Source: a virus
DNA length: 23,847 bases
Virus record (IMG/VR): IMGVR_UViG_3300032331_001184
Span: 1 to 23,847 of that record
Strand: one strand, 5' to 3'
Shown: in pieces, positions 3,791 through 19,752 of the stretch
Layout of the letters: each line of letters starts with the position of its first letter
Position numbering within the stretch: the stretch's first letter is position 1
The notes under the pieces: model-generated
The model's input: only the letters and a program-made list of their open reading frames with translations
Database searches by the model: none
What the model was told of the DNA's origin: nothing
Translations under genes and position numbers: made by a program

Positions 3791-3804
3791 AAGGATAAGT
3801 AGAA

Positions 3805-4257: not shown

Positions 4258-4258
4258 T

Positions 4259-4332: not shown

Positions 4333-4339
4333 TATCATC

Positions 4340-4384: not shown

Positions 4385-4391
4385 ACTAATT

Positions 4392-4481: not shown

Positions 4482-4496
4482 AACAGAGAGGGTGCT

Positions 4497-4706: not shown

Positions 4707-4710
4707 ATTT

Positions 4711-4784: not shown

Positions 4785-4790
4785 ATCTAT

Positions 4791-4861: not shown

Positions 4862-4883
4862 TCACCAAAGGAGTTCTAATGAC

Positions 4884-5249: not shown

Positions 5250-5250
5250 C

Positions 5251-5589
5251 ATGATTATCCCGACCAAGTATAATGTAGGTGATACCTTTTGGGTTCCTCG
5301 TTCGATGGACTTTTGGACAACCGAAGAACTCAGACACGAAGGTGAAGTGTGGGAACGACAGGTTAAAGAGATTCGACCTAGCGTCAAACAGAAAAAGATC
5401 ATAGGCATAGAAATTTCGGTGAACAAGAGCAACAAAGTAAATATTCAGTACTTTACAGTCAATGTTGGCCATGAAGATACTATGTCGCAGGTCTATCAGG
5501 AAATGACCATCAATAATTACACTGAAGAAGAAGCACTAGCAATAGCGAGAGATTATGCCGACAGGAATGAAACCTATTACGGAACTTAA
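5251..5589 (+). CDS. Hypothetical phage protein
   Basis: 112 residues starting one base after the speD stop, hence probably coupled. The N-terminus MIIPTKYNVGDTFWVPR looks like a small SH3-like or beta-barrel fold (a GDxVWVP-type motif common in phage and host small proteins). It is followed by beta strands (KIIGIEISVNKSNKVNIQYF) and a C-terminal helix with EEEALAIARDYADRNE. No catalytic motif is visible. Function unknown. Confidence 0.72.
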   Translation: MIIPTKYNVGDTFWVPRSMDFWTTEELRHEGEVWERQVKEIRPSVKQKKIIGIEISVNKSNKVNIQYFTVNVGHEDTMSQVYQEMTINNYTEEEALAIARDYADRNETYYGT

Positions 5590-5788
5590 TCTGAAGTATC
5601 CGTTCGATGAAACTTCAGAAGGAACTTCACGCAATTATACTCTGCTGCACGCCAACTACAATTGGTGCCTAGATATCTTCAAGAGGGTTGACGAGGTGCT
5701 CAAAGCAGAGTATTATACACCTCAAGAAAAGATTGATGGGATTACTTGGCTCATCAAACAAGGATTGAAAGCCGAGTCAGAAGAATAA
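5555..5788 (+). CDS. Small hypothetical helical protein overlapping its upstream neighbour
   Basis: 77 residues from the ATG at 5555, or 73 from the in-frame ATG at 5567, which has AGG just before it; either start overlaps the upstream gene by 23-35 bases in another frame. The body is helical and charged (NYNWCLDIFKRVDEVLKAEY, EKIDGITWLIKQGLKAE). The stop TAA ends at 5788 and tRNA-Ala begins at 5789 with no gap. Family unknown. Confidence 0.65.
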   Translation: MPTGMKPITELNLKYPFDETSEGTSRNYTLLHANYNWCLDIFKRVDEVLKAEYYTPQEKIDGITWLIKQGLKAESEE

Positions 5789-5864
5789 GGGGGTATAGCT
5801 CAGTTGGGAGAGCGTCTGCTTTGCAAGCAGAATGTCGGCGGTTCGATCCCGTCTACCTCCACCA
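5789..5864 (+). tRNA. tRNA-Ala (TGC)
   Basis: Acceptor 5789-5795 pairs with 5854-5860 (one G-T); A73 and CCA 5862-5864. Stem TCTGC/GCAGA with loop TTTGCAA gives TGC at 5822-5824. It starts directly after the stop of the upstream gene. Confidence 0.95.
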
Positions 5865-5870
5865 GTTTGT

Positions 5871-5946
5871 TAGGGATTAGTTCAGTTGGTAGAACGGCAG
5901 ACTCTGAATCTGCATGTCCGAGGTTCGAGCCCTTGATCCCTAGCCA
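5871..5946 (+). tRNA. tRNA-Gln (CTG)
   Basis: Acceptor 5871-5877 pairs fully with 5936-5942; G73 and CCA 5944-5946. Stem GCAGA/TCTGC with loop CTCTGAA gives CTG at 5904-5906. With the TTG isoacceptor at 975, both Gln codons are read by dedicated phage tRNAs. Confidence 0.94.
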
Positions 5947-6023
5947 GTCCCGTTAGCTCAACTGAATAGAGCATCGGTCTACGAAACCGAAGGTTGGGAG
6001 TTTGACTCTCTCACGGGACGCCA
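5947..6023 (+). tRNA. tRNA-Arg (ACG) with an A19-U56 elbow
   Basis: Starts at the base after the previous CCA. Acceptor 5947-5953 pairs with 6013-6019; G73 and CCA 6021-6023. Stem TCGGT/ACCGA with loop CTACGAA gives ACG at 5981-5983, which needs A34-to-inosine editing by host TadA. The D-loop AACTGAATA carries A19 and the T-loop TTTGACT carries U56, the compensatory pair also seen in the two Gly-type tRNAs. Confidence 0.94.
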
Positions 6024-6039
6024 TTTAAGGAAGAAGAAA

Positions 6040-6147
6040 ATGAAGACGCTAAATGAATTACTTGACATAGCCAAAATAGCTGCTATACTATTTTGGATGC
6101 CAATCATCGTAATGACCTTTCTAGGAATTATGATTAGTTTCGAATAA
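6040..6147 (+). CDS. 35-residue single-span membrane peptide
   Basis: ATG at 6040 behind AAGGAAGAAG, stop TAA at 6145-6147, one base before tRNA-Leu. After an amphipathic start (MKTLNELLDIAK) comes a continuous hydrophobic stretch (IAAILFWMPIIVMTFLGIMI) long enough to cross a membrane once. It lies between tRNA-Arg and tRNA-Leu, as other small cargo genes do. A near-consensus promoter is embedded in the same DNA, so the frame could instead be a by-product of promoter sequence. Moderate confidence. Confidence 0.45.
   Translation: MKTLNELLDIAKIAAILFWMPIIVMTFLGIMISFE
6062..6089 (+). promoter_or_regulatory. Near-consensus sigma70 promoter upstream of tRNA-Leu
   Basis: TTGACA at 6062-6067, a 16-base spacer and TATACT at 6084-6089, followed by ATTT. 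The extended TATACTATTT is identical to that of the promoter at 852-880. It would start about 50 bases before tRNA-Leu and may re-initiate transcription of the distal tRNAs. Confidence 0.6.
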
Positions 6148-6148
6148 T

Positions 6149-6225
6149 GCCCCTGTAGCCCAACTGGTAGAGGTGCCGGTCTTAGAAACCGTAGGTTGTC
6201 AGTTCGAATCTGACCTGGGGCACCA
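6149..6225 (+). tRNA. tRNA-Leu (TAG) with a short variable loop
   Basis: 77 bases. Acceptor 6149-6155 pairs with 6215-6221 except T6-T67; A73 and CCA 6223-6225. The anticodon loop CTTAGAA gives TAG at 6183-6185, reading CUA. The D-arm (three-pair stem, TGGTAGA loop) looks Leu-like, but the variable region is only AGGTT, whereas bacterial Leu tRNAs are class II with a long arm. Either a reduced Leu tRNA or one with a shifted anticodon. Confidence 0.88.
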
Positions 6226-6227
6226 AA

Positions 6228-6318
6228 TTTAGTCCTTGCCATAGGGACAGGCCATTCTTCGTGGCTGGTATCAACGGCATGATATCTAGTGTCAGGTGCG
6301 AGCATGACCTAACTAAAG
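6228..6318 (+). ncRNA. Cloverleaf-like tRNA remnant or structured RNA
   Basis: Six pairs close the ends (6228-6233 with 6312-6317). Inside are a weak D-like hairpin (6234-6245), an anticodon-like arm GGCCA/TGGCT with a seven-base loop TTCTTCG (6250-6266), a variable-arm-like hairpin of seven pairs (6267-6273 with 6280-6286), and an imperfect T-like arm (6291-6308) containing GTGCGAGC where GTTCGAGC is expected. No CCA follows. It looks like a decayed class II tRNA between the two Leu tRNAs. A functional tRNA-like RNA cannot be excluded. Confidence 0.45.
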
Positions 6319-6334
6319 ACGCAGAAGAATAATA

Positions 6335-6411
6335 GCCCGTGTAGTCCAATTGGTAGAGGCGGCGGATTCAAACCCCGCATGTTGTGGGTTCGAGTCCCTC
6401 CTCGGGCACCA
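6335..6411 (+). tRNA. tRNA-Leu (CAA) with a short variable loop
   Basis: 77 bases, the same architecture as the Leu (TAG) gene. Acceptor 6335-6341 pairs with 6401-6407 except T6-T67; A73 and CCA 6409-6411. Stem GCGGA/CCCGC (A-C at the loop end) with loop TTCAAAC gives CAA at 6369-6371, reading UUG. The variable loop is ATGTT. Shared length, mismatch and D-loop show the two are paralogues. Confidence 0.88.
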
Positions 6412-6431
6412 ATCTAGAAGGAGAAGTGAGC

Positions 6432-6668
6432 ATGAATAAGTTACTTGTAGTATGTGGGTTGGCTTTGACACTTGCTGGTTGTAATGCAACCGTGTATCCG
6501 TCGAGGCCTATGGTGATTGATCTTGAGACACGACCACCTTTGGTTGTGCCTCGTGCATATGAACCTCTTCCACCTCCTCGCCCATACATGCACAACCATC
6601 GTCGTTGTGGCACTATTTGGGATAATACACCTCGTGGCTATCGTGAACGGGTGGTCTGTAATTACTAA
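6432..6668 (+). CDS. Small putative lipoprotein, Pro/Arg-rich
   Basis: 78 residues. A type II signal peptide ends in LAGC (Cys17), followed by a Pro- and Arg-rich segment (PSRPMVIDLETRPPLVVP, PLPPPRPYMHNHRR) and a C-terminal CGTIWDNTPRGYRERVVCNY with a Cys pair that could form a disulfide. I chose the ATG at 6432 behind AAGGAGAAG; the longer frame from 6384 begins inside tRNA-Leu. The stop TAA lies directly against tRNA-His. A probable outer-membrane lipoprotein of unknown role. Confidence 0.8.
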   Translation: MNKLLVVCGLALTLAGCNATVYPSRPMVIDLETRPPLVVPRAYEPLPPPRPYMHNHRRCGTIWDNTPRGYRERVVCNY

Positions 6669-6744
6669 CCTAACTTAGTGTTGTTGGTCAGCACGGATGA
6701 TTGTGGATCATCAAGACTTGGTTCGAATCCAAGAGTTAGGACCA
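6669..6744 (+). tRNA. tRNA-His (GTG), alphaproteobacterial type
   Basis: Acceptor 6669-6675 pairs fully with 6734-6740; A73 and CCA 6742-6744. Stem GATGA/TCATC with loop TTGTGGA gives GTG at 6703-6705; T-loop TTCGAAT. The base before position 1 is A (the end of a stop codon) and the discriminator is A, so the near-universal G-1:C73 pair is missing. That loss is documented for many alphaproteobacteria with matching HisRS changes. Confidence 0.95.
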
Positions 6745-7239: not shown

Positions 7240-7454
7240 AGCTCGACACCATCTTTGCCGAAAGGTTTAGAATATCGATGAAGCGTATGGAAATATGCAG
7301 AACATGCGATAAATTTAAACCCGACAACAAAAAATGTTTAGTCTGTCGTTGTTTCATGGACTATAAGACATTGCTTCTCGACTCCAAATGCCCTCTTGAT
7401 AAATGGCAAGCTGAAAAAGTGCTAAATAGTCCATCAGACCAGGAGTCAAAGTAA
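7236..7454 (+). CDS. Cys-rich mini-protein (putative zinc binding)
   Basis: 72 residues. Cys21-x2-Cys24, Cys34-x2-Cys37-x-Cys39 and Cys52-Pro lie in a pattern ending CPLDKW. Short phage proteins with C-x2-C ... C-x2-CxCF(M) ... CPxxKW are common in T4-like marine phages and probably bind zinc; their function is unknown. ATGA overlap with the upstream gene and TAATG overlap with the downstream gene imply tight coupling. Confidence 0.82.
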   Translation: MKLDTIFAERFRISMKRMEICRTCDKFKPDNKKCLVCRCFMDYKTLLLDSKCPLDKWQAEKVLNSPSDQESK

Positions 7455-7897
7455 TGGAAGAACTAGTAGAAAAGCTGAAGGTTGTTTTAGCTAACACATT
7501 CACCATGTATATCAAGACACATGGTTATCATTGGAATGTTATTGGTTCTGACTTCCCTCAGTATCACGATTTCTTCGGTGATATCTATACAGAGGTTCAT
7601 GGTGCAGTAGATGATATTGCCGAACAGCTTCGTCAGATAGATTCATTTGCGCCTGGCACTCTTCAGCGTATGAAAGAATTATCTCAGGTAGAAGAAGATG
7701 ATAAGATTCCTGCTGCACCTAAGATGGTCACAAACTTGATTGCTGCCAATGATACTGTAACTACTTCTCTGATAGAGTGTTATGAGATGGCAGAAGATGC
7801 CAAAGAGTATGGTCTATCTAACTTCCTTCAAGACAGAATAACAGCCCATAAGAAACATAGTTGGATGCTCAAAGCAACCTCAGGTCAGAAATCATAA
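7454..7897 (+). CDS. dps: Dps-like ferritin-family protein
   Basis: 147 residues forming the four-helix ferritin/Dps pattern. The inter-subunit ferroxidase motif is recognisable: His26 (YHWNV), His38, Asp53 and Glu57 (DDIAEQ) match E. coli Dps His51, His63, Asp78 and Glu82 in spacing. The position of Asp67 is Gly42 with an Asp at 43, so iron binding may differ. The short N-terminus lacks the Lys-rich DNA-binding tail of E. coli Dps, so protection by iron and peroxide detoxification is more likely than DNA compaction. Last gene before a strong terminator. Confidence 0.88.
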   Translation: MEELVEKLKVVLANTFTMYIKTHGYHWNVIGSDFPQYHDFFGDIYTEVHGAVDDIAEQLRQIDSFAPGTLQRMKELSQVEEDDKIPAAPKMVTNLIAANDTVTTSLIECYEMAEDAKEYGLSNFLQDRITAHKKHSWMLKATSGQKS

Positions 7898-7920
7898 TAG
7901 TACATTGATAGAATCAATCT

Positions 7921-7948
7921 AAGCCGCCTCAGGGCGGCTTTTTGTTGT
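7921..7948 (+). terminator. Strong rho-independent terminator
   Basis: An eight-pair stem AAGCCGCC/GGCGGCTT (7921-7928 with 7933-7940), loop TCAG, followed by TTTGTTGTTT. A small hairpin, ATTGAT/ATCAAT (7904-7918), precedes it. It closes the unit ending at the Dps-like gene and separates the tRNA/cargo region from the late block. Confidence 0.92.
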
Positions 7949-7950
7949 TT

Positions 7951-7958
7951 AATAAATA
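7951..7958 (+). promoter_or_regulatory. Late-promoter-like NATAAATA box
   Basis: AATAAATA followed by TACC, just after the terminator and 33 bases before the next start codon. This is the expected place for a T4-like late promoter opening the 7991-11012 block. Confidence 0.6.
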
Positions 7959-7990
7959 TACCGTATAGACAACTTTATGATTGATGAGAA

Positions 7991-9160
7991 ATGCAGATAT
8001 CACAAATTATACCTAAAATGACTACCGTGAAGTTCAATTCGATACTGAAAAGTGTCGGTGTTATGTCACATGAGATAGTCAATGCAAAAATGATAGTGCT
8101 ATATGGTCAGACAAAATCTAGATCAGACAGATCAGGCCTACTCAAAGAACTGGCCGGCCTACTAAAAACCTATGGTGCAAAATTTGACGCATCCAGTGCG
8201 GCTTCAGGTGCCGGCGCAGTTATGGTTGGTCAGACGAAGATCATAACCAAACCAGCAAAAACTCAAGGTGGTTATATTCTCAAACCAGGTTTTTTTGGTG
8301 ATCCAAGAGTAAGTCTGGTAGACGAAGACATACCTTTCAACTCATACTATTCTAAGGTCATCTCTGCAATCAATGCCACAAAGAAACTATCAGATGAACA
8401 AAAAGAAGTACTGATTGCAATCACAGAGTACACAAAGAGTCCTGATGCTGCTACCAAACTCAAGGTGAAGAAGATGATGAAAAACTTGGGTCAGACAATT
8501 CAGATAAACACCGTAAACAATGATTTTGGCGAAGTACTAGGACCTATTGCAATACAGAGCTACAGTCTTCTGCCTATAGACTATAGATCAGCAGTTGTAA
8601 GGATACCTGGTAGATCCAATGAACCGTTGTTGGACTATAAGATAACAGACAATAAGAATGAATATAAAATTTCTGCCAAGTCTGGTACTACTACGAATAC
8701 ACTAAAACCTGCCGATGTTTTGAGTCTTATTGATGAGAACCCTAAGTTGAAGAAGAGATGGGGTAAGACTCCTGAATATACCATAATCAAGCTTCTGAAT
8801 GAAGGCACCACAAAGCAAGGCCCAATTGATACTGGTATGTGGATGAAGAAGAACGGTTTCGAATCTGAATTTGGCTGGTTAAAAAATGATGTGTACACCG
8901 AAGAGAGTAGACAGAAGTGTGAAGACACGATAGTTAAAATTTCCAGAGAATCAATAGACTTCACACCATTGTTCAAAGATGCAACCGATTCGAAAATATT
9001 CTATGTGAAATTTAGAATGACGATAATGGGTGAGGTAGAATGGAAATTGGTAGAAACACCAAAAGATAAGAGTGAAGAAAAGAAGACGCAGAAGAGAGTC
9101 TCATTCAGGTCGAAGAACTTTGTTGGCAGAGCAAAAGATAAGTTAGGTTTCCAAGTATGA
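7991..9160 (+). CDS. Uncharacterised late protein, possible PD-(D/E)XK-like core
   Basis: 389 residues, basic. The N-terminal half is helical and Lys-rich. The central part holds NDFGEVLGPI (Glu181), LLDYKITDNKNEYKISAKSG (Asp215, Lys230) and TNTLKPADVL. The order Glu, Asp, then x-x-Lys on adjacent strands resembles a PD-(D/E)XK nuclease core with Ser-Ala-Lys in the last motif, but this is inference only. A C-terminal Lys/Arg-rich tail (about 345-389) could bind nucleic acid. The ATGA overlap with the next gene ties it to the KWDG protein and HAD phosphatase. The start lies behind GATGAGAA, a weak ribosome binding site. Confidence 0.8.
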   Translation: MQISQIIPKMTTVKFNSILKSVGVMSHEIVNAKMIVLYGQTKSRSDRSGLLKELAGLLKTYGAKFDASSAASGAGAVMVGQTKIITKPAKTQGGYILKPGFFGDPRVSLVDEDIPFNSYYSKVISAINATKKLSDEQKEVLIAITEYTKSPDAATKLKVKKMMKNLGQTIQINTVNNDFGEVLGPIAIQSYSLLPIDYRSAVVRIPGRSNEPLLDYKITDNKNEYKISAKSGTTTNTLKPADVLSLIDENPKLKKRWGKTPEYTIIKLLNEGTTKQGPIDTGMWMKKNGFESEFGWLKNDVYTEESRQKCEDTIVKISRESIDFTPLFKDATDSKIFYVKFRMTIMGEVEWKLVETPKDKSEEKKTQKRVSFRSKNFVGRAKDKLGFQV

Positions 9161-10392
9161 TTTCATTTTCAAGCTATCTCAATGAATCTAAAGAAGGTAA
9201 GAATGTTCATTTGGAGCACCTGCAAGATGAGGTGTTGAATGGCGGTGTCACTGGTACCAGAAGTGCTATTTACTTTCTCACTTCTCTGAGAGATATGCTG
9301 GCTGGACATGCTAGTGAAGCCAGAGTTAATCTTACCACAAAGTGGGATGGAGCGCCTGCTGTTTTTGCTGGTATCAATCCAGAAAACGGTAAATTTTTCG
9401 TTGGTACTAAAGGTGTCTTTGCAAAGAACGCAAAACTCAATTATACCGATGCTGACATTGATGCAAACCATCCTGGTGAAGGTTTAAACAAGAAGCTAAA
9501 GATTGCTCTAAGATATCTCAGAGAACTTGGTATCACTGGTGTTATTCAAGGTGACATGATGTTCACCAAAGAAGACCTTAAAAATCAAACTATAGATGGC
9601 GTTGATTATGTTATCTTCCAACCTAACACTGTTGTATATGCTGTACCTGCTGATTCTAATCTCGCTAAACAGATAACTACAGCACAGATGGGTATTGTCT
9701 GGCATACCACATATGTTGGCCCTGCACTAGAAGATATGAAAGCTTCGTTTGGTGTTGATATCGGGCATCTCAAGCAAACCCGAAATGTCTGGTTCAGAGA
9801 TGCTTCATTCGTTGATGCTACAGGCACAGCCACATTCACCGCGCCAGAGACCGCAGCACTTAACTCTATCCTTACAGCCGCCGGTAATCTATTCAGAACC
9901 ATATCTGCCCGCACACTGAATGAGATTGCTACGAACGATGCCTACAAGGTACAGATCAAGGCCTGGAACAATTCTAAGGTTCGCGAAGGTCAAGCCATCA
10001 CAAATACGTCCGAGCATGTTAAAGGATTAATTCTTTCGATTGAGGAAAGAATGAACAAGTCAATTGCCGAGGCCAAGAAAGCTGACACGAAGGCCAACCG
10101 TCAGCGTGAAAAAACCATTGTGGTAGGTTGGTATAAGGCCAACAAAGATGAGTTGAAGAAGATTTTCGACTTGCAAAACCTGATAATTGATGCTAAACTA
10201 ATGATAGTCAGAAAGCTGGAAAAGATACAGGGTGTAGTAGGAACATTTAAGAGAACTGAGAATGGCTATACCGTAACAACACCAGAAGGATTCGTGGCCG
10301 TCGATAGACTGAAAGGAAATGCAGTCAAGTTAATCGACCAGCTAGAGTTCGCTTTCAATAACTTCACAGCAACAAAGAACTGGTCGAAATGA
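9157..10392 (+). CDS. DUF6267-like protein with a ligase-type KWDG motif and T4-like capsid-targeting N-terminus
   Basis: 411 residues. The N-terminus MISFSSYLNE-S has Leu8-Asn9-Glu10, matching the position and type of the prohead-protease site in T4 internal proteins. The core has LTTKWDGAPAVFAG (Lys62-Trp-Asp64-Gly65), FVGTKG, TGVIQGDMMF (Asp133) and GIVWHTTY. KxDG is motif I of covalent nucleotidyltransferases (DNA/RNA ligases, capping enzymes), and GVIQGDMM resembles the following DGE motif. A C-terminal helical region ends EFAFNNFTATKNW. Homologues are common in T4-like marine phages. Nucleotidylation activity is inferred. It overlaps both neighbours by ATGA. Confidence 0.82.
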   Translation: MISFSSYLNESKEGKNVHLEHLQDEVLNGGVTGTRSAIYFLTSLRDMLAGHASEARVNLTTKWDGAPAVFAGINPENGKFFVGTKGVFAKNAKLNYTDADIDANHPGEGLNKKLKIALRYLRELGITGVIQGDMMFTKEDLKNQTIDGVDYVIFQPNTVVYAVPADSNLAKQITTAQMGIVWHTTYVGPALEDMKASFGVDIGHLKQTRNVWFRDASFVDATGTATFTAPETAALNSILTAAGNLFRTISARTLNEIATNDAYKVQIKAWNNSKVREGQAITNTSEHVKGLILSIEERMNKSIAEAKKADTKANRQREKTIVVGWYKANKDELKKIFDLQNLIIDAKLMIVRKLEKIQGVVGTFKRTENGYTVTTPEGFVAVDRLKGNAVKLIDQLEFAFNNFTATKNWSK

Positions 10393-11012
10393 AATCTCTC
10401 TATGAATATCTAGAAGAAGCCAAAGAACAAACGGGAATGTTGCTCAACATTTTCGATATTGATGATACACTATTCATATCACAGGCCTCTGTCGTGATTA
10501 TGAAAGACGGTGAGAAGGTTCGTGAACTGAAGTCTGGTGAGTTCAACACCTATAAGTTGAAACCAGGTGAAGAGTATGATTTCGCTCAGTTTAGGTCTGG
10601 TGAACATTTCAAGAAGACTGCGGTGCCTATCGATAAGATGATTGACCGCTTGAAGAGAGCCTTTCAAGACACCAATTCGAAGACTATCATCGTCACCGCA
10701 AGGTCCGACTTCTTCGATAAAGGTCCTTTCTTGCAGAAGTTTAGAGACCATGGTATTCCAATCGACCAGATTTATATCGAACGAGCTGGTAACCTCCAGA
10801 AGCTAAAGGCTGACGCGAAGACCAATATCACCAAGGCGGTTATCATTCGCAAGTACATCGCTTCTGGTAAATACAATAAGATCCGCATGTGGGATGACCA
10901 TAGAGGTAATCTCGAAACGCTTCTGAAGCTGAATAAACTACATCCAGAAATCAAGATTGAGGCCTACTTGGTCGATCCAGAGACAGGTGAAAGCACCAGA
11001 TATACTAAATAA
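10389..11012 (+). CDS. HAD-superfamily phosphatase with capsid-targeting-like N-terminus
   Basis: 207 residues. Haloacid dehalogenase motifs in order: I, FDIDDTLF (Asp23, Asp25); II, IIVTARSD (Thr103); III, Lys149 in TKAVIIRKYI; IV, MWDDHRGNL (Asp169, Asp170). The size and cap-poor layout resemble polynucleotide 3'-phosphatase or 5'-nucleotidase members. The first ten residues, MKSLYEYLEE-A, precede the catalytic domain and carry Leu8-Glu9-Glu10, as in T4 internal proteins. It overlaps the KWDG protein by ATGA and precedes the kinase-bearing polyprotein, so phosphatase, kinase and nucleotidyltransferase sit together. The substrate is unknown. Confidence 0.87.
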   Translation: MKSLYEYLEEAKEQTGMLLNIFDIDDTLFISQASVVIMKDGEKVRELKSGEFNTYKLKPGEEYDFAQFRSGEHFKKTAVPIDKMIDRLKRAFQDTNSKTIIVTARSDFFDKGPFLQKFRDHGIPIDQIYIERAGNLQKLKADAKTNITKAVIIRKYIASGKYNKIRMWDDHRGNLETLLKLNKLHPEIKIEAYLVDPETGESTRYTK

Positions 11013-11040
11013 AAGACAAAGGTTCCTGTAGAGGGGATAT

Positions 11041-14000
11041 ATGAAAACAATAGCGGTTTATCCTGGCCGTTTCCAACCTTTTCACAAAGGTCACGCCCAG
11101 GTCTATAAGTGGTTGAAGAGTAAATTTGGTAACGCAACCATTGCAACATCCAATAAAGTAGAAGCTCCAAAGAGCCCTTTCACCTTCACTGAAAAGAAGA
11201 AGATGATGGAGCTATCTGGTGTCACCTCTACTGACATTCACGAAGTTCGCAGTCCATATATCTCATCTGAAGTTTTACGAGGCTACGATGGTTCAAAGAC
11301 CATTGTAGTCTTTGCTATTTCCCAGAAAGACATGGAAGAAGATCCACGTTTCTCTTTCAAGCCAACCAAGTCTGGTCAACCCAGCTATCTACAACCATAT
11401 CCAAAAGACGGTAAAGGTGCAAAACCTTTCGGTGATCCTGATAAACCTAAGGCCTATGTGGTCGTAACACCAACATTCGATTTCGAAGTGCTTGGTGAAC
11501 CTGCAAGGTCTGCTACAGAAGTTCGCAAGCAATTTGCTAATGCCGACCATGGTACTCAGATCAAGATCATCAAAGACCTCTTTGGTAAATATGATAAAGG
11601 TATTCACAAAGTTATGGATGAAAAAATTAAGGGTGCGATGGCATCCGCACCAAAACCAGTTTCTATCAAGAAGATTAGAGCCAAACTCAAAGAAGAAAAT
11701 ATCAATGAGGTATCAAAAGTAAAATTGAGTTCTAAGCCTGATGATTTTGGAGCTTATGTGCGCGACACTGGTGATAAACCAGAAAAAACTTCAACTATAC
11801 CAATTCATAAAATATCTGTGCATGAGCCTGATGATAAGTTTGATAATCCAGAACATGCTAAAAATTTAGGTAAAATTGCAAAGTCGATCAAAGCTGGTAA
11901 AGAAATGCCACCTATATTAGTTCGAAGACATGGTATAGATAGATTTCAAGTTGTTGATGGTCATCATAGATTGAAAGCTCATAAAATGGCCGGCAAGAAA
12001 GAAATTTCGGTCAGGGTGCTTTCACCAGCCAACGTCAAAGAGATCAAAGAAGACCATGTAGAAGATATTGGTGACCTGAACCATGAGAAGTTTGGTCCAA
12101 TGCTGGACACCTTCACACAGTTTGCATCGAAGAAGCTTGGTATCAAGTCACTACCTAAGATGAGACTTGAAAAAGAACCAATGAGTAATAGTTTTGGTGG
12201 TTATACTCCAGGCGAAAAGTCTATTGTAGTAATAAGCAAGAACCGCCATCCTATGGATGTGTTCAGGACCGTTGCTCATGAATTGGTCCATCACAAGCAA
12301 AATGAGGATGGTCGTCTTGGCAAAGATATTTCCAATGAAGGTGCAACAGGTTCCGATATTGAAAACGAAGCCAATTCGGAAGCTGGCAAGATTATGCGCT
12401 GGTTTGCGAAGTCTAATCCAGAAATGTTCAAGTCTGGTTATGTCACCGAAGAAACGATAACCGAAGGTATCAACGATCCAGGTACATTCAAGGCTGTATT
12501 CTTGGCTGGTGGACCTGGTTCAGGTAAAGACTATGTGATGAAGCAAACCCTTGATGGTATGGGCCTGCAAGAAATCAATTCAGATATTGCATTTGAGTTT
12601 CTTATGCGTAAGGCTGGTTTGAACTTCAAGATGCCTGAGAGTGAACGTGTCGAACGTGACCTCGTGCGCGGGCGTGGAAAGAACATCACCAAAGAGCGCC
12701 AGCGTCTTGCACTAGCAGGTCGTCGTGGTGTTATCATCAATGGTACCGCTGATGATCCAGAACATGTGGCTTCTATCAAGAAAGAACTAGAAGCCCTAGG
12801 CTATAGCACCATGATGGTGTTTGTGAATACCTCAGATAAGGTATCACAAGAACGTAATATCGGTAGAGGTGAGGCCGGTGGGCGCGCAGTACCAGAAGAC
12901 ATTCGCAAAGATAAGTGGGAAGCATGTCAGGCTGCTATGCCTGTTCTTGCAAAGCTATTTGGTAAAGATAACTTCGTTGCAGTAGATAATAGCAATGATC
13001 TTCGCACTGCACCACCTGAAGTAAAGAAGAAGGTTGAGGGTGAGTTTCAGAACATTTTCAAGATGACAAAGAAGTTTGTTGCTCGTCAACCAAATGATAA
13101 TCCTGCGGCTGCTGCATGGAATCAATCTGAGATGCAGAGACGCAATATGCAGTCTTTCGTACCACCAAGTACAACTGCATTTGGTACAGGTTCGGTTCAA
13201 CGTGGTGCAGTTCAGGCCTCTGATGCAATACCAGCAGACCAAGATAACGTACAGCAAGTTTCACAAGCACCATCACCTAATGAACAAACGCAGGCTCAGC
13301 GCCTTGGTTTGACATACTACGGTTTTGGTCGTTATGGTACAACAATAAAAGGAAAACATACCGTAACTTATATTTCTCAGAATGGTAAGTTAGTACCTAA
13401 GCAGAGACAGATAGCGGAAGACCTTCGCAAGTGGTTTAGCAAAACTAATCCTGAAGGTGGGTGGAAAAGAATCAACTCTAAGGGTGAAGCTATTGGTCCT
13501 TGTGCTAGAGAGCCTGGTGAACCTAAACCAAAGTGTATGTCCAATGAAAAGAGAGCGTTACTAACTAAAAAAGAAAGAGCCTCTGCTGTTCGAGCAAAGC
13601 GTAAGCACGATCCTAATCCAGAAAGAAAAGGTGATCCTATCAATGTATCAAACTTTGGTAAGGGTAAAATTGGTGAGGCGTGCTGGGATGGTTACAAGGC
13701 AAAAGGTATGAAGAAAAAAGGTAACAGAATGGTACCTAACTGCGTTCCTGTAAGTGAAGCAAATGCAGCCGCTATAGCGGCAGCAACAGCAATAGCAAAG
13801 AAGAAGTCTGGTAATTATGATTCTAAAGGGCTTAGAAAAACGCCATATAAAAATCCAGATGCACCAAATGTAAAATCAAATGAAGAGAGAAGAAAAGAAA
13901 TGAAGAAAGAAGAATATCTTCAGGAGAAAAACGTACCTACAAATCCAAGTCTTTGGTCTCAAGCCAAGTCTATGGCTAGATCCAAGTTTGATGTATATCC

Positions 14001-14991
14001 TTCTGCCTATGCTAATGGTTGGGCATCGAAGTGGTATAAGTCTAAAGGTGGTGGTTGGAAAACTCAAGCAGATGAGAGTTTTGAAAACATGGTCAATGAG
14101 AACACACCATCAGATCGTGAGTGGGGTAAAAATAGTCTCACCAAGATTTATAAAGAGAATACACCTGGTCAAACTTTTCCAGAAAATCCACTATCTGAGA
14201 AAAATGTGAAAGAAGGTAAAGTTCTTCCAGACCTCACACAAAAGCCAATTGAACCTAAACATTCAAAGCAGTATATGGATCGAATAAAAGATAAAAAAGC
14301 TAAGAGAGCTGAGAATAAGCGTGAAAGAGGTGAAGCACTGAAATTTGCATCTTATATGTGGTCAAAGAAGCTTGCTCAAGAAGACAATGCGCCTGCACTA
14401 GGCTATGAGTTTGGTAGAGATGGTATAGGACCAACATTTGGCACCATTCGTTCACCATCAGGATTTGGTGGATATTCTATACCTATGTCAGAATCAGTAG
14501 CAGCATGGGCCAGCAAAGATGAGACCATAGAGCGTTTCATCACCAAGTATGGCGAACAGGCTGAACAAAAGCTATATGAAGCTTGTGAGAGATTGAGTGA
14601 AATCAAATCTACTCCAAATACAAGCAAAGGTTTCAATGGGCTTCGTGAGTCATGGGAAGCTATCGGCGGGCGTGACATGGGTACTGTACCAAAACAAGGT
14701 AAAGAAGAGGTAGACGAAGCTTCGGCCGCATGGCAGCGCAAAGAAGGTAAAAATCCAACTGGTGGTTTGAACAAGAAGGGTATCGCCTCTTATCGCAGAG
14801 AGAATCCTGGTTCTAAGCTATCACTTGCAGTCACAACCAAACCATCTAAGTTGAAGCCTGGTTCTAAGGCTGCAAACCGTCGCAAGTCATTTTGCGCCCG
14901 TATGGGTGGTATGCGCGGGCCCATGAAAGATGAAAAAGGTAGACCAACAAGAAAAGCATTGTCGCTCCGCAAATGGAATTGCGAAGAATAA
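11041..14991 (+). CDS. 1316-residue modular enzyme polyprotein: nucleotidyltransferase, ParB/Srx-like, HExxH peptidase, P-loop kinase and DUF modules
   Basis: Modules in order: a NMNAT/cytidylyltransferase-like domain (about 1-195; GRFQPFHKGH at 9-18, RSATEVR at 156-162); a ParB/sulfiredoxin-like domain (about 225-330; PPILVRR, VVDGHHRLKA at 304-313); a metallopeptidase-like domain (about 340-460; HELVH at 413-417, later Glu443/Glu447); a P-loop kinase (about 480-680; GGPGSGKD at 490-497, GRGEAGGR lid); a Pro/Gln/Ser linker (about 700-760); a DUF5872-like module (793-860); ACWDGYK...VPNC (880-901); a PSLW...YPSAYANGW module (969-1000); and a DUF6321-like Cys/Arg-rich end (about 1227-1316). 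Several boundaries carry hydrophobic-x-Glu (LKE218, ITE475, LQE962, VDE1226). Strong ribosome binding site GAGGGG. In relatives many of these modules are separate proteins. Confidence 0.88.
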   Translation: MKTIAVYPGRFQPFHKGHAQVYKWLKSKFGNATIATSNKVEAPKSPFTFTEKKKMMELSGVTSTDIHEVRSPYISSEVLRGYDGSKTIVVFAISQKDMEEDPRFSFKPTKSGQPSYLQPYPKDGKGAKPFGDPDKPKAYVVVTPTFDFEVLGEPARSATEVRKQFANADHGTQIKIIKDLFGKYDKGIHKVMDEKIKGAMASAPKPVSIKKIRAKLKEENINEVSKVKLSSKPDDFGAYVRDTGDKPEKTSTIPIHKISVHEPDDKFDNPEHAKNLGKIAKSIKAGKEMPPILVRRHGIDRFQVVDGHHRLKAHKMAGKKEISVRVLSPANVKEIKEDHVEDIGDLNHEKFGPMLDTFTQFASKKLGIKSLPKMRLEKEPMSNSFGGYTPGEKSIVVISKNRHPMDVFRTVAHELVHHKQNEDGRLGKDISNEGATGSDIENEANSEAGKIMRWFAKSNPEMFKSGYVTEETITEGINDPGTFKAVFLAGGPGSGKDYVMKQTLDGMGLQEINSDIAFEFLMRKAGLNFKMPESERVERDLVRGRGKNITKERQRLALAGRRGVIINGTADDPEHVASIKKELEALGYSTMMVFVNTSDKVSQERNIGRGEAGGRAVPEDIRKDKWEACQAAMPVLAKLFGKDNFVAVDNSNDLRTAPPEVKKKVEGEFQNIFKMTKKFVARQPNDNPAAAAWNQSEMQRRNMQSFVPPSTTAFGTGSVQRGAVQASDAIPADQDNVQQVSQAPSPNEQTQAQRLGLTYYGFGRYGTTIKGKHTVTYISQNGKLVPKQRQIAEDLRKWFSKTNPEGGWKRINSKGEAIGPCAREPGEPKPKCMSNEKRALLTKKERASAVRAKRKHDPNPERKGDPINVSNFGKGKIGEACWDGYKAKGMKKKGNRMVPNCVPVSEANAAAIAAATAIAKKKSGNYDSKGLRKTPYKNPDAPNVKSNEERRKEMKKEEYLQEKNVPTNPSLWSQAKSMARSKFDVYPSAYANGWASKWYKSKGGGWKTQADESFENMVNENTPSDREWGKNSLTKIYKENTPGQTFPENPLSEKNVKEGKVLPDLTQKPIEPKHSKQYMDRIKDKKAKRAENKRERGEALKFASYMWSKKLAQEDNAPALGYEFGRDGIGPTFGTIRSPSGFGGYSIPMSESVAAWASKDETIERFITKYGEQAEQKLYEACERLSEIKSTPNTSKGFNGLRESWEAIGGRDMGTVPKQGKEEVDEASAAWQRKEGKNPTGGLNKKGIASYRRENPGSKLSLAVTTKPSKLKPGSKAANRRKSFCARMGGMRGPMKDEKGRPTRKALSLRKWNCEE

Positions 14992-14997
14992 CTTTCA

Positions 14998-15005
14998 GAT
15001 AAATA
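14998..15005 (+). promoter_or_regulatory. Late-promoter-like NATAAATA box
   Basis: GATAAATA followed by TACAT, in the 44-base gap after the polyprotein stop and 31 bases before the next ATG. Same spacing and context as the box at 7951. Confidence 0.55.
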
Positions 15006-15035
15006 TACATAAACCTCAATTAAAGGAACTTAAAC

Positions 15036-16121
15036 ATGCACGGAAATAATAACTTCACTAAGAAAGACCCGTTGGTCAATGCAGTAGCAAAAGTGATGCA
15101 AGAGAATGAAACTCGTCGTCAAATCGAAAAGCAGTTTCAAGAAGAAATTGGCATTCAGGCCAAGCGCGAACTTCCATTCCAGAAACATGCAGAGTATGAC
15201 CGTCTTCTTGCAGAAAGAACAGCAGTTGCTCTTAATGAAGAACTAAAAGGTAATCAACACAAGATCGATGCTAACAAGAACAATAAAGTTGATGCACAAG
15301 ACTTCAAGATTTTGAAGGCTCAAAAGAAACAGCCACAGGGTGCAGACTTTGCAGCACAGAGACGTAAAGAACGTGTCGCATCTAATGGGCGTATGGATGA
15401 GGCTGACTATCCGCCAGGTGCTGGGCAAGATACTGCTAAAGACAAAGACCCTGATATGATGAAGGGTGCACCAGGCGAAAAAGATAGTACACCAAAGGCG
15501 GCTCCAATGCCACCTAAGCGCCCTGCCAATATGGAAGAAGAGGCCGAGCAGATCGATGAGCTTTCTAAGAAGACACTCGGCTCGTATGTAAAGAAGGCCT
15601 CACATGATGTAGCAACTAAGTCTGCTGCAACTGGTCGCTATGCTGAAAGAGCAAACAAAGAAGAAGATGATCGCAAGAAAACAGGCGACTATTCAGGCTA
15701 TCGTCAAGGGCGTAAAGACAATGAAACGGCTGACAAGATGTTTGGTAAGTCATGGAAGCGCCGTCAAGGTATTGCTAAGGCAGTTGACAAGATGACCAAA
15801 GAAGAAACCCTTGCTGAACGTAACGAAGAAAACAAAGGCAAGAAAGATGCTGCCGTTACTTCAATCGGTGCAAAGAACAAAGATGAAAAGCATCTTGGTT
15901 CTAAGGGTACAGGAATCCGTAATAGCATAGCAGACAAGATTCGTGGTCGTGAAGTAACATCAGGTAAAGATCGTCTTGAAGAAAAGGCACCTCCAGGTGA
16001 CAAGTATGAGCGCATGGTGAAGCACATCAAGTCCAAGTATTCTAAAGATGGTCTATCAGACAAAGAAAAGTCAATCGCCTATGCTACTGCATGGAAGGCA
16101 AAGAACAAGGATTCAGAATAA
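15036..16121 (+). CDS. Lys/Glu-rich late protein with an EF-hand-like loop and an ELSKKTLxxYVKKA module
   Basis: 361 residues, highly charged and largely helical or disordered. Residues about 80-95 read KIDANKNNKVDAQDF, an EF-hand/dockerin-type calcium loop (D1, N3, N5, hydrophobic 8, D9, D12). A module at about 171-257 (IDELSKKTLGSYVKKAS ... WKRRQGIAKAVDKM) recurs in the 18175-19752 product. The C-terminus, PPGDKYERMVKHIKSKYS ... KSIAYATAWKAKNK, is a widespread phage motif. Promoter box and AAAGGAAC ribosome binding site upstream. Probably an internal head or structural protein by composition and context; no enzyme motif is seen. It overlaps the next gene by TAATG. Confidence 0.82.
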   Translation: MHGNNNFTKKDPLVNAVAKVMQENETRRQIEKQFQEEIGIQAKRELPFQKHAEYDRLLAERTAVALNEELKGNQHKIDANKNNKVDAQDFKILKAQKKQPQGADFAAQRRKERVASNGRMDEADYPPGAGQDTAKDKDPDMMKGAPGEKDSTPKAAPMPPKRPANMEEEAEQIDELSKKTLGSYVKKASHDVATKSAATGRYAERANKEEDDRKKTGDYSGYRQGRKDNETADKMFGKSWKRRQGIAKAVDKMTKEETLAERNEENKGKKDAAVTSIGAKNKDEKHLGSKGTGIRNSIADKIRGREVTSGKDRLEEKAPPGDKYERMVKHIKSKYSKDGLSDKEKSIAYATAWKAKNKDSE

Positions 16122-17089
16122 TGGATAAGGTAACTCTCGATGCAGTAATGGAAGAAATCAAGAAGAGCCTTGGTGAGGCTCGCCTGATGAAGATTTTTGA
16201 AGACGATCCTGAAGATAAGGTCATTAAACAAGAACCTAAAACTTCAGCTACACCTAGCAGTCAAGAAGATCAGAATAAAACTGGTACATCACCAGCAACG
16301 GCAGGTAGTCAACCACAATCTACAATGGCTTCTCCTGGTGATAGAGCCGCTTTTGATGCTAAAACTGGCGCCGATAAAACAAGAGCCGATGCAGGTGCAG
16401 CCGAGCTTGCACAGAGAACATTAAAACCTCTTGTACCAGGTGGTTCAACTGCACCATCAGCTCCAGGAGCTGTCAGACCTTTATCTGCACCATCTGCTCC
16501 TATTAAACCCATAACTGGACCTACACCTCCAGGCGCCGGCGCAAAACCTGTTTCTGCTCCTGCGGATGCTGCGGCTAAACCTGAAAAATTTAGTGGAACA
16601 ATTAAAGATTTCCAGGCAAAAAATGCTGGTGCTACAGTTGGCCAGGCTATGAATGCAATTCAAGGTAAAACAGCTATTGCTGGTGGTAAGAATGATCCAT
16701 CAGTTATACAGAAAGGTTATGATGCAACTAGCGGCGGCAGAACTCGTGCATATGATCCAGCTGCTGGTGCTTCAGCTCCAAAACCAGCCGCTCCGGCTGC
16801 TCCAGCTGCACCTAAATCTGCTCCAGCTCCTGCGGCACCTGCGGTTGCGGCTGCACTCGCGAAAGCACAAAGTAGAAGTGCTGGAACAGATGACAGCGGT
16901 AACCAAAAAGCACCTTCTGCACCTGCGGTTGCGGCTGCTCAACAACAGAGAAATACTGAATTGTTGTCAAAAAATCAATCTAACATTGATGATTTGAAAA
17001 AGGCTCAGAAAAAGAACCCTGTTGACTTGAGCAATGTGTCAGAAAACTTCGACCAGTTCGTCAAGAAGTTTCTAAAGGAATCAAAATGA
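16121..17089 (+). CDS. Ala/Pro-rich low-complexity late protein
   Basis: 322 residues. I chose the ATG at 16121, which overlaps the upstream stop (TAATG), rather than a longer frame from 16091. An N-terminal amphipathic helix (MEEIKKSLGEARLMKIFEDD) leads into a disordered Ala/Pro/Ser region. A small conserved-looking core, SGTIKDFQAKNAGATVGQAM ... KNDPSVIQKG (about 169-205), is followed by PAAPAAP repeats and a duplicated PAVAAA segment. The C-terminus, SENFDQFVKKFLKESK, is a second amphipathic helix. The layout of two helical ends joined by a flexible linker suits a scaffold-like or internal head protein. ATGA overlap with the next gene. Confidence 0.78.
   Translation: MDKVTLDAVMEEIKKSLGEARLMKIFEDDPEDKVIKQEPKTSATPSSQEDQNKTGTSPATAGSQPQSTMASPGDRAAFDAKTGADKTRADAGAAELAQRTLKPLVPGGSTAPSAPGAVRPLSAPSAPIKPITGPTPPGAGAKPVSAPADAAAKPEKFSGTIKDFQAKNAGATVGQAMNAIQGKTAIAGGKNDPSVIQKGYDATSGGRTRAYDPAAGASAPKPAAPAAPAAPKSAPAPAAPAVAAALAKAQSRSAGTDDSGNQKAPSAPAVAAAQQQRNTELLSKNQSNIDDLKKAQKKNPVDLSNVSENFDQFVKKFLKESK
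16835..16938 (+). repeat. 20-base direct repeat in the Ala/Pro-rich gene
   Basis: An exact 20-base repeat occurs at 16835-16854 and 16919-16938 (84-base period), coding APAVAA both times. It suggests a recent slippage or short internal duplication in low-complexity DNA. Confidence 0.75.
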
Positions 17090-17523
17090 GTGTGTTAAAG
17101 AAACTCAAAGAACAGCCTATAGAAAAATTCAAAGGTGGTGCCGCTGATATTCAAGACCTATCTGGTCCAAACAAGGTTGTAGGTTCAAAACCAAGAGAGC
17201 AACACCACGGTCTTTCAGAAGAAGAAATTGAAGAAGCTCGTTCAACAACAACAGGTTTAGGTGGCACTCATGCTAGTGGTATGAAGAAAACTGGACCAAA
17301 CATCAATAAAGCGGGTGCTGGCCTTCAACAAAGAGCTGGTGCCCAAAGAGGTGGTAACCAAAGACGAAGCCCAGCAATGTATGCCGAAGAGGCTACCAAG
17401 AAAGTTCTCAAGAAACTAAAAGAGAAAAAAGGTGAACAACCTTTGGGTAAAACTGCTACAGGTCAAGCAGGTGATACTATTACCACCGAACCTAGCAAAC
17501 CAGAATTAGTCGGTTATCACTAA
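17086..17523 (+). CDS. Basic Gly/Lys-rich hypothetical late protein
   Basis: 145 residues, mostly disordered by composition. The N-terminus, MSVLKKLKEQPIEKFKGGA, has Leu-Lys-Glu at 7-9. A nearly identical VLKKLKE heptad returns at about 107-113, an internal echo. The middle is Gly/Thr-rich (TTTGLGGTHASGMKKTGPNI) with an Arg/Gln patch. ATGA overlap with the previous gene implies coupled translation. No family recognised; context suggests a small head-associated or internal protein. Confidence 0.7.
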   Translation: MSVLKKLKEQPIEKFKGGAADIQDLSGPNKVVGSKPREQHHGLSEEEIEEARSTTTGLGGTHASGMKKTGPNINKAGAGLQQRAGAQRGGNQRRSPAMYAEEATKKVLKKLKEKKGEQPLGKTATGQAGDTITTEPSKPELVGYH

Positions 17524-17531
17524 CATAAATA
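17524..17531 (+). promoter_or_regulatory. Late-promoter-like NATAAATA box
   Basis: CATAAATA followed by TAAGC, just after the upstream stop and 22 bases before the ATG at 17554, which has its own AAGGAG ribosome binding site. Confidence 0.5.
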
Positions 17532-17553
17532 TAAGCAACAAGGAGTACTACAT

Positions 17554-18159
17554 ATGCTTTGGGGAAATAAAGATTACGGCAATGGCAATAACAAGCCACT
17601 GTTTGCTAATACATCTAATTCAACATCTAACTCTACAATCAATGGTACAGCAGCCAATACAAATCAATACTATGGTATTGTGGCTGGTGTGTCAACAACA
17701 GAACTTGACTTAACTCAAGGTGCTGCAAACCATCCGCAACACGCTGGTTGGGTCAGTCTCAAGATTGGTACAGGTCCTATTTCTGCCATTTCAATTACGA
17801 ATGGTGGTCAAGGTATCAATGCCGCAGGTTTCATCAATATCACAGATGGTAGCTATCTTGCTCAAGGTACTGGTGCGAACATCTCTTTCACCATCGCCAA
17901 CTCACAGAATAGTTTGCAGTCATACTCAACCAATTCTGCACTAAATGCCATTTCATCTTTGACAATCGTAAGTGGTGGTAGCCTGTATTCGAACGTATCT
18001 GCTATCACATATAAAAGCAATATAGCCAATACTGTTCAGCCAACACTAGCGATTACCCTTGGCGGCAGAGCAGGTAGATATTCTGCTGAAACTCTTGTTG
18101 CAATGGGTTCGATGACTCTTGATGACGCAAGAGATAACGTCTACTTCTCTGGCATCTAA
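17554..18159 (+). CDS. Putative virion structural protein, beta-rich
   Basis: 201 residues. The N-terminus MLWGNKDYGNG is followed by an Asn/Ser/Thr-rich beta region with two related units (ISAISITNGGQGINAAGFIN and ISSLTIVSGGSLYSNVSAIT) typical of phage fibre or decoration folds. The segment HAGWVSLKIGTGP, together with the C-terminal GGRAGRYSAETLVAMGSM, resembles short structural proteins of T4-like marine phages in which GWV and GGRAGR are adjacent. Here they are separated by about 100 residues, as if the beta units were inserted. Preceded by a late box and AAGGAG. Confidence 0.75.
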   Translation: MLWGNKDYGNGNNKPLFANTSNSTSNSTINGTAANTNQYYGIVAGVSTTELDLTQGAANHPQHAGWVSLKIGTGPISAISITNGGQGINAAGFINITDGSYLAQGTGANISFTIANSQNSLQSYSTNSALNAISSLTIVSGGSLYSNVSAITYKSNIANTVQPTLAITLGGRAGRYSAETLVAMGSMTLDDARDNVYFSGI

Positions 18160-18174
18160 TAAAGGCAACTAGAT

Positions 18175-19752
18175 ATGAAAACTTTCAAAAGATATATTAA
18201 AGAAGAAAATGCTCCAAGATTTGGAACATCATCAGGCATAACTGATGTAAACGATGGTGCTGTCAGAGACAATATCAATACTATATTGACGATGACAACA
18301 GCAAGAAAATATATCACACCTTATCTTGCTCTAGAAAGAGTAAAGAAAGCCTTGGCAAATTTTCATATCTTCTTACCAAACTATTCATTCTTAGAAGGTG
18401 ATTCTGGAATGGCCGTCTTTGATGTCAAACAATTTGGTGACAAAATGGGTATGACAGATGACGGTCAATTCATCAAAGAAGTTCCACCAATCTATCATGT
18501 ATATTTTGAATATCAGTTGTCTGACTGTGGAATGTTCGAAGCTTTCTGTGAAGTGGTAAGTAAGGCTGAACTCGATGAGATTCTCGAAGATGTTGAGGAT
18601 GAAATGAATGAGGCTGAGTCAGAAGAGCTTGAAGAAGAGGCACACACAGCCGAACCAGAAACAGGTGAACGTAAGACACCTGGTTCGAATCAAGAACCAT
18701 TCGAAAAAGCATCGGCTCCAAAACCTATAAAGAAGCGAACTGATGCTGAAATGGAAAAGAAGAAGCTTGATGAAGTTGTCACCGCTCGTAAGATGACACC
18801 AAAAGAAAAGAAGGCTCGTGCTGAATATATTGTGAAGCATAAAGAAAAACTTGCTGCACACGATACTGGTATCAAAGCTAAGAAAACCGTGAAAGATGTT
18901 AAATCTGAACCTGGTGATTATGGTAGCGAACCAAGCAAGATGGGCCTAAGAAATGCTATCGGTGCTGGCTACTACAAAGTAGACGAAAGTATGGAAGAGA
19001 AGAAAGAAAAAAAGAAGGCCAAGTTCAAAGCTTATCGTGATGAGAGAGATGAGAGTAAGAAGAAGCGTGAAGATATGAAATGGCAAAAACATAGGCTCAC
19101 TAAAGAAGGTATCGATCTTTCTAAGATTACATTGAATAAAAATACAGGCAATATCTCATCTAGTGATCCTAAAGCTGATCTATCTAAAGTAAAAATGGAT
19201 AAGAAGACGGGTAACATATCTGCCACGAATGAAGATAGAATGGATGACCTTGCAGATTCTCTAAAGACCAATAGAGAGCGTCAAAATGCGGCCACCGATC
19301 CTCAAGAAAAAGAGCGTCTTTCAGGGCAACGCGACCGTATGATGAGTACTGCCGATAGAGTACCTAGTCAACCGGCCATCAATGAAATCTCAGCCAAGCT
19401 TGTTGGTAAGGTCAATAAGGCCAGAGCAGTTGATGGTAAGCCAAGTAAGACTAAAACAGCCAGTGCAACTCTATCGAGAGCCGTTGCGAAGAAGTGGCTC
19501 GACTCAGATGTAGGTAAGCTTAAAGAAGAAGAAAACCTTCAAGAACTTTCTGATAAACTAAAGAAGAGATATGTCAAGAAGGCCACAGACGATAAGAAGT
19601 CTGCTGAAAGACAAGCAAGTTTGTCTGACCGTGAAGCAGCCGATACGGGCCGTAGTAAAGAGTCTCGTAAGTCTTTCAAAGATGAATCGAAGTGGCTAAA
19701 AGGTATTGCCTCTAAGAGAGCCAAGGGGCTAGAAATGGCAAATAAGAAGTGA
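18175..19752 (+). CDS. Large late protein with capsid-targeting-like N-terminus and a Lys/Glu-rich modular tail
   Basis: 525 residues. The N-terminus MKTFKRYIKE-E closely follows T4 internal proteins (MKTYQEFIAE-A), with Ile8-Lys9-Glu10. A conserved globular part (about 12-145: SSGITDVNDGAVRDNINTIL, LALERVKKALANFHIFLP, FEYQLSDCGMFEAFCEVV) is typical of T4-like marine phages. Beyond it lie an acidic stretch and Lys/Glu-rich sequence, a 21-residue direct repeat (DLSKxxxxKxTGNIS at 314 and 335), an NEISAKLVGKV...LSRAVAKKWL module (about 404-448) and an ELSDKLKKRYVKKA module (about 455-521) shared with the 15036 product. Probable virion or internal head protein. Confidence 0.83.
   Translation: MKTFKRYIKEENAPRFGTSSGITDVNDGAVRDNINTILTMTTARKYITPYLALERVKKALANFHIFLPNYSFLEGDSGMAVFDVKQFGDKMGMTDDGQFIKEVPPIYHVYFEYQLSDCGMFEAFCEVVSKAELDEILEDVEDEMNEAESEELEEEAHTAEPETGERKTPGSNQEPFEKASAPKPIKKRTDAEMEKKKLDEVVTARKMTPKEKKARAEYIVKHKEKLAAHDTGIKAKKTVKDVKSEPGDYGSEPSKMGLRNAIGAGYYKVDESMEEKKEKKKAKFKAYRDERDESKKKREDMKWQKHRLTKEGIDLSKITLNKNTGNISSSDPKADLSKVKMDKKTGNISATNEDRMDDLADSLKTNRERQNAATDPQEKERLSGQRDRMMSTADRVPSQPAINEISAKLVGKVNKARAVDGKPSKTKTASATLSRAVAKKWLDSDVGKLKEEENLQELSDKLKKRYVKKATDDKKSAERQASLSDREAADTGRSKESRKSFKDESKWLKGIASKRAKGLEMANKK

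Follow-up and report, generated by a model that had tools for sequence, protein, structure and literature searches.

A putative T4-type capsid targeting sequence shared by a ligase-like protein, a HAD phosphatase and a third protein of a T4-like phage contig

The viral contig IMGVR_UViG_3300032331_001184 of the IMG/VR database, analysed here over its full 23,847 nucleotides (the window), is a 23.8-kb genome fragment whose named relatives are for the most part T4-like Kyanoviridae. Its 14 tRNA genes are followed by an operon starting at position 7991, which encodes, on the plus strand, three proteins with a common ten-residue N-terminus resembling the capsid targeting sequence (CTS) of phage T4 internal proteins. 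The first (9157–10392) is a ligase-like covalent nucleotidyltransferase of 411 residues belonging to family DUF6267 (PF19782, E = 2e-103). The second (10389–11012) is a HAD phosphatase of 207 residues resembling the 3′-phosphatase of T4 Pnkp (phrog_415, E = 2e-9), and the third (18175–19752) is a 525-residue late-region protein of unknown fold. The CTS-like propeptides are MISFSSYLNE (9157–9186), MKSLYEYLEE (10389–10418) and MKTFKRYIKE (18175–18204), with predicted cuts by the prohead protease gp21 between Glu10 and Ser11, Ala11 and Glu11, respectively. These starts had been given in a preliminary description of the DNA, and their coordinates, frames and sequences proved exact. Since the 9157 and 10389 genes are translationally coupled by 4-base overlaps and the closest relatives use the same starts, the called starts look right. 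All three proteins possess Leu or Ile at position 8 and Glu at position 10. Positions 4 and 7 are hydrophobic throughout, with Phe and Tyr in the 9157 and 18175 products and Leu and Tyr in the 10389 product. Position 4, which the preliminary description did not mention, is conserved as well; in T4 it is, together with position 7, a determinant of targeting. The same description stated that T4 internal proteins start MKTYQEFIAE-A; this is correct for IPII and IPIII but not for IPI, which starts MKTFKEFTSTTT....

The frequency of such starts was assessed by scanning the N-termini of non-overlapping open reading frames (ORFs) for the motif M-x(1,2)-[FYLIM]-x-x-[FYHW]-[LIVMF]-x-E, with shuffled residues 2–25 as the control. 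Three ORFs of the window match, compared with 0.075 in the shuffles (P about 7e-5), so that the common start of three unrelated proteins indeed exceeds chance. In eight related genomes that encode a gp21-type protease there are 31 matches, against 2.81 by shuffle (11-fold, P = 6.5e-22). Five gp21-negative control genomes, namely large phage contigs with a DUF6321 gene and without detectable gp21, contain none (1.06 expected). The 34 matches, window included, represent 23 sequence-unrelated families, far more than expected, and are not independent between genomes, as some are orthologues. Internal methionines of the same ORFs exhibit a lower motif rate.

Selective conservation of the tag is evident in the DUF6267 family, for which 42 sequences were aligned, the relatives being 47–90% identical to the window protein. 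Among these relatives position 4 is Phe, Leu or Tyr (41/41), position 7 is Phe or Tyr (40/40), position 8 is Leu or Ile (41/41) and position 10 is Glu (41/41), while positions 3, 5, 6 and 9 are variable and the linker past Glu10 differs in length. The four fixed positions are those identified by mutagenesis of T4 IPIII, in which positions 4 and 7 serve targeting and positions 8 and 10 serve processing (PMC9026906). Residues 1–13 of the AlphaFold model of the DUF6267 protein are of low confidence. The sole relative found for the 18175 product (57% identical) starts MKSFKQFVNE↓E (↓ marks the position after the key glutamate), in which the four key positions are kept and the rest is changed. The HAD family retains the tag in 10 of 15 sequences and lacks it in the others. 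Environmental NMNAT-like proteins start MKTYQKFMTE↓K, which is nearly the T4 IPIII tag MKTYQEFIAE. In phage C48C1 (11688–13031), the annotated start of a cytidyltransferase seems to lie too far downstream, as the frame runs upstream through a CTS-like IKNFSQYLLE↓E; several more tagged small proteins are encoded in the same operon.

The protease expected to cut this tag is present in the relatives. A gp21 protease (Peptidase_S77) is encoded in all four DUF6267 relatives of at least 90 kb (G001–G004), was also detected in G026, G046, G050 and G059, and is annotated as prohead protease in phages Melnitz, S-CREM2, S-SM1 and S-SCSM1. The gp21 cleavage site is L/I-x-E (PMC9026906). The major capsid proteins of the latter four phages contain FLSE↓A, LLTE↓A, ILTE↓T and FLAE↓A in the region of FLTE↓A in T4 gp23, the expected maturation position, and these sites have the same ending as the tag.

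Published virion proteomes include tagged proteins of three related phages. The virion proteins of S-CREM2 have been listed by mass spectrometry (MS; PMC10665884). Six of its 219 proteins carry the motif in exact register, and five of the six occur in the virion, as do 47 of the remaining 213 proteins (Fisher P = 0.003). The five (ORFs 6, 13, 14, 136 and 154) comprise a S-adenosylmethionine (SAM) hydrolase, an APH-like kinase, a cytidylyltransferase and two proteins of unknown function. Virions of S-SM1 contain the T4-GC190 cytidylyltransferase (PMC3037559), which starts MKKFSAFLNE↓A, and those of S-SCSM1 contain an NMNAT (ORF91; PMC9602691), which starts MKSFLQFLKE↓A and is one of two tagged proteins in that phage. 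The SAM lyase family (PF23780) is tagged in three phages (L085:11511–12071, L265:7243–7797 and L211, which is S-CREM2, 3840–5081), and the tagged lyase of S-CREM2 is present in the virion; these occurrences hint at a fit with injected counter-restriction. Two virion proteins carry possible variants of the signal: a Cas9-annotated nuclease-like protein of S-CREM2 (7704–10313) has FASFMAE↓A at residues 19–26, possibly a longer CTS, and a 69-residue protein of S-SCSM1 (46626–46835) terminates in KKRTFKEFLEYIE, which may be a tag at the C-terminus.

The proposed cargo of the window includes two likely enzymes. In the DUF6267 protein, ligase motifs I (K62WDG), III (QGD133, with Gly132 and Asp133), IV (E377GFV380) and V (Lys391) are invariant or nearly so in the 42 sequences. 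This agrees with the preliminary assignment of a KWDG nucleotidyltransferase-like protein, KWDG being ligase motif I. Structural alignment with VIA placed RNA and DNA ligases in most of the top rows (Naegleria Rnl, Z = 6.9; REL1, 6.7; Trl1, 6.3), the best of these with a root-mean-square deviation (rmsd) of 4.3 over 184 residues; Foldseek returned no significant fold and a PDB sequence search gave coiled-coil chance matches only. The DUF6267 gene of S-PM2 (AJ630128, 7992–9771) is seemingly split, its C-terminal half being fused to cytidylyltransferase GC190. In the HAD protein, the catalytic residues Asp23, Asp25, Thr103, Arg105, Lys149, Asp169 and Asp170 (motifs I–IV) are invariant, and the best VIA match of the model is the T4 Pnkp phosphatase (Z = 13.5, rmsd 2.6, 133 residues aligned), alongside the Pnkp1/Rnl/Hen1 complex (Z = 13.3). 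The HAD assignment of the preliminary description stands, and the protein is a candidate Pnkp-type 3′-phosphatase of nucleic-acid ends. A PDB sequence search with this protein gave no match, and AphA, ranked first by Foldseek but with weak TM-scores, was set aside as the nearest fold, the Pnkp match having come from VIA. A short basic module, ELSxKxxxxYVKKAxxD, may be common to the tail of the 18175 product and the product of ORF 15036 (15036–16121); the similarity is weak (BLASTP E = 0.014). In both proteins the module is preceded by [IL]xE (QIDE↓LS and NLQE↓LS), another candidate prohead-protease joint. A C-terminal CTS considered in ORF 16091 (...FDQFVKKFLKESK) was dropped because its spacing is wrong.

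Selective conservation, gp21-linked enrichment and the virion proteomes of other phages support the idea of the preliminary description that one delivery signal has been placed on different cargo. We consider it highly probable that the shared ten-residue start is a T4-type CTS that carries proteins into the head and is cut off by a gp21-type protease. According to this model, the three proteins would be made late in infection, the tag would attach to the prohead core by way of its hydrophobic positions 4 and 7, and the tagged proteins would be enclosed as the shell forms. A gp21-type prohead protease with L/I-x-E specificity would then cut after Glu10, ahead of DNA packaging; the protein bodies, still inside the head, would pass into the next host together with the DNA. 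Across these T4-like phages, the tag would be a movable module attached to cargo proteins of many unrelated kinds. For the 9157, 10389 and 18175 products themselves, we infer packaging, cleavage, injection and a joint role.

Several observations weigh against this interpretation. The gp21 gene was not found within the 23.8-kb window, as is expected of a fragment, and the virion evidence comes from the related phages S-CREM2, S-SM1 and S-SCSM1. MS of S-CREM2 virions did not detect ORF175 (55 residues), an exact-register match, or ORF30, a loose match, and ORF30 of S-SCSM1 (106 residues, MKTFKQFMSE↓S) is tagged yet lacks an annotation as virion protein. An acidic residue follows Glu10 in the 18175 product and in roughly half of the DUF6267 relatives (Glu or Asp), where T4 IPII and IPIII have Ala or Arg; in these proteins gp21 would have to cut at E↓E or E↓D. 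The DUF6267 proteins of cyanophages S-PM2 and S-SM1 and some HAD orthologues have no tag, so that packaging is not universal for these two families. The ligase-like fold match of DUF6267 falls below Z = 8, too low to convince by fold alone. With these points in mind, other explanations of the common start may be weighed. The most serious, though in our view unlikely, accepts the tag as a true CTS and makes its bearers assembly or scaffold factors of the prohead instead of injected enzymes. T4 IPIII does influence head morphogenesis (PMC9026906), and the tagged set includes several small proteins without a known function; yet the tagged enzymes retain catalytic residues that assembly would not need (HAD, ligase motifs, SAM lyase and NMNAT), and the cargo set differs from genome to genome. 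That the start instead docks, as a helix, onto some other partner common to these proteins, such as the replisome, the membrane or a chaperone, with a convergent likeness to T4 and no packaging, appears improbable. The adjoining of DUF6267 genes to replication genes (helicase, primase and recA) in relatives and the helical residues 4–15 of the HAD model favour such a helix, which, however, would require neither Glu10 nor the Leu or Ile at position 8, both of which match the gp21 site. Moreover, it would leave the MS detection of tagged proteins in the virions of three phages and the absence of the motif from gp21-negative phages unaccounted for. Least credible of all is a likeness owing to chance composition or gene duplication: although the motif is short, MK starts are frequent in phage genes and some matches are orthologous between genomes, this reading is contradicted by the shuffle control and the five control genomes, by the presence of the motif on 23 unrelated bodies and by the HAD, NMNAT, DUF6321 and CWxGY families, in which some members carry the tag and others lack it.

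The use of the signal may extend to the neighbouring ORF 11041 (11041–14991, plus strand), whose 1316-residue multi-module product has no N-terminal CTS but gp21-type [ILVMFY]xE sequences at its domain joints, and is a candidate head polyprotein. Its modules are CTP_transf/NMNAT, ParB_N, a zincin, a Zeta/AAA_33 P-loop kinase, several small modules and DUF6321. CTP_transf_like, Zeta/AAA_33 and DUF6321 exceed the Pfam cut-off, ParB_N falls slightly under it (25.0 versus 26.3 bits) with PHROG support for ParB, and the HELVH zincin motif was identified by sequence. Three joints, all on the plus strand, are of particular interest. At Glu475 (12463–12465), ITE↓GINDPGTF lies ahead of the kinase module and is invariant in 13 of 13 sequences, and stand-alone kinases start MKTFAELQE↓GVYDP or MIPFILKE↓GLYDP. 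At Glu879 (13675–13677), the fused protein reads KIGE↓ACWDGY, and stand-alone CWxGY proteins start MKTFKEHIKE↓AQGPCWDGY or MQTFKQFLE↓ACWTGY. At Glu1226 (14716–14718), VDE↓ASAAWQRKEG lies ahead of DUF6321 and is invariant in 9 of 9, and stand-alone DUF6321 relatives start MLKFKQFLDE↓SAAW or MITLKEFIAE↓VAAW. Other fused relatives retain entire internal tags, for example LSFKQYLNE↓VAAW, VSFESFVSE↓ASAAW and KTFGNFMNE↓ASAAW. These features suggest a polyprotein that is predicted, from its sequence, to be cut in the prohead at its domain joints. It is quite possible, if short of likely, that the joints are instead cut by the zincin of the protein itself, as self-processing has been proposed for polyvalent proteins (Iyer et al., 2017, PMC5512222), or are left uncut, the xE sites arising from composition. 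The protein does contain the HELVH motif, and its overall [LI]xE count does not significantly exceed that of shuffled sequences (14 versus 9.3 ± 2.8), so that it is the positions of the joints that argue for the polyprotein. Against both alternatives, three module types have xE↓ at the very joint where their stand-alone copies carry the CTS, and six sites (475, 793, 1151, 1180, 1203 and 1226) do not vary among orthologues. Furthermore, among contigs of at least 85 kb, shorter DUF6321-type contigs being uninformative on the absence of gp21, the protease occurs in five of six with an E-type DUF6321 joint and in none of five with a Glu-less joint. In G054 (140 kb, joint KE↓GHAPTW) gp21 was not found, which is either an exception or a gap.

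Because phosphatase, kinase and ligase adjoin, we tentatively propose, as the likeliest role, that the putative HAD 3′-phosphatase, the P-loop kinase of the multi-module neighbour and the DUF6267 ligase-like protein constitute a preloaded end-healing and sealing kit, which would mend tRNA or DNA termini severed by host defences within the first minutes of infection. In a broader view, which we regard as evenly balanced between right and wrong, the tag would be a general modular loading system of aquatic T4-like phages. Many unrelated enzymes (the end-repair ligase and 3′-phosphatase, the kinase, NMNAT and SAM lyase) would be tagged singly or joined in polyproteins with internal gp21 joints derived from fused tags, and the prohead protease would release the effectors in the head, ready at injection for the repair of cuts inflicted by the host.

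The surroundings of these genes may be those of a late operon. T4-type late-promoter-like cores (ATAAATA, plus strand) lie at 7952–7958, preceding ORF 7991, the first of the cargo operon; at 14999–15005, preceding ORF 15036; and at 17525–17531, preceding ORF 17554 and, further downstream, 18175. With three such cores in non-coding gaps about 20–40 bases upstream of ORFs 7991, 15036 and 17554 (0.19 expected, P = 0.001), the placement of these predicted promoters hints at late timing. The exact TATAAATA was not found in the window, and the NATAAATA form is enriched in placement only, without overall enrichment. The tRNA genes (900–6744), a big set for such a contig, are mixed with small ORFs, and a Dps-like protein (7454–7897; phrog_3636 'DNA binding protein', E = 1e-30) is encoded directly upstream of the cargo operon. 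The window also encodes a lysis cassette and, at its right end, a gp61-like primase, as judged by sequence.

Repeated reports of enzymes in cyanophage virions have come with no explanation of why these are packaged. A T4 packaging signal that is widespread and used on enzymes would supply one, and a readable N-terminal tag provides a genome-wide, testable prediction of head-bound proteins in T4-like marine and freshwater phages, pointing to counter-defence functions in the first minutes. The present tag shares with the CTS of T4 IPII and IPIII the ten-residue start, the hydrophobic positions 4 and 7, Leu or Ile at 8 and Glu at 10, and gp21 is found in the relatives. It differs in that the cargo includes enzymes (ligase-like, 3′-phosphatase-like, NMNAT, SAM lyase and kinase), in that the residue after Glu10 is frequently Ser, Asp or Glu, and in that tag-like sequences also occur at joints inside multi-module proteins. 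A Pnkp-type HAD 3′-phosphatase beside a ligase-like nucleotidyltransferase and a P-loop kinase domain recalls T4 Pnkp/Rnl1 and bacterial Pnkp1/Rnl/Hen1. The repair enzymes of T4 are made after infection, whereas those of the present phage would arrive preformed. Jumbo phages SPN3US and phiKZ use another protease and other propeptides. Their packaged head and ejection proteins are likewise processed by the prohead protease (PMC5694885, PMC10052503). The product of ORF 11041 resembles polyvalent proteins (Iyer et al., 2017, PMC5512222) in combining several unrelated effector domains, including ParB-like and zincin modules, in one chain and in its probable early delivery, but its joints resemble prohead-protease sites rather than zincin-processed ones. 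Further close parallels are the virion enzymes of T4-like cyanophages (the T4-GC190 cytidylyltransferase and the SAM hydrolase and APH-like kinase of S-CREM2), which belong to the same family, Kyanoviridae, and bear the same tag; in S-SM1 a related operon adjoins DUF6267. Papers on these enzymes report presence in the virion but not a targeting signal, the words targeting, propeptide and internal protein all being absent from the S-CREM2 text (PMC10665884), and a literature search on capsid targeting and cyanophages returned a T4 review only. The type of signal is known from T4; the breadth of its use, the enzymes that carry it and its apparent occurrence in polyproteins are new as far as the literature consulted shows.

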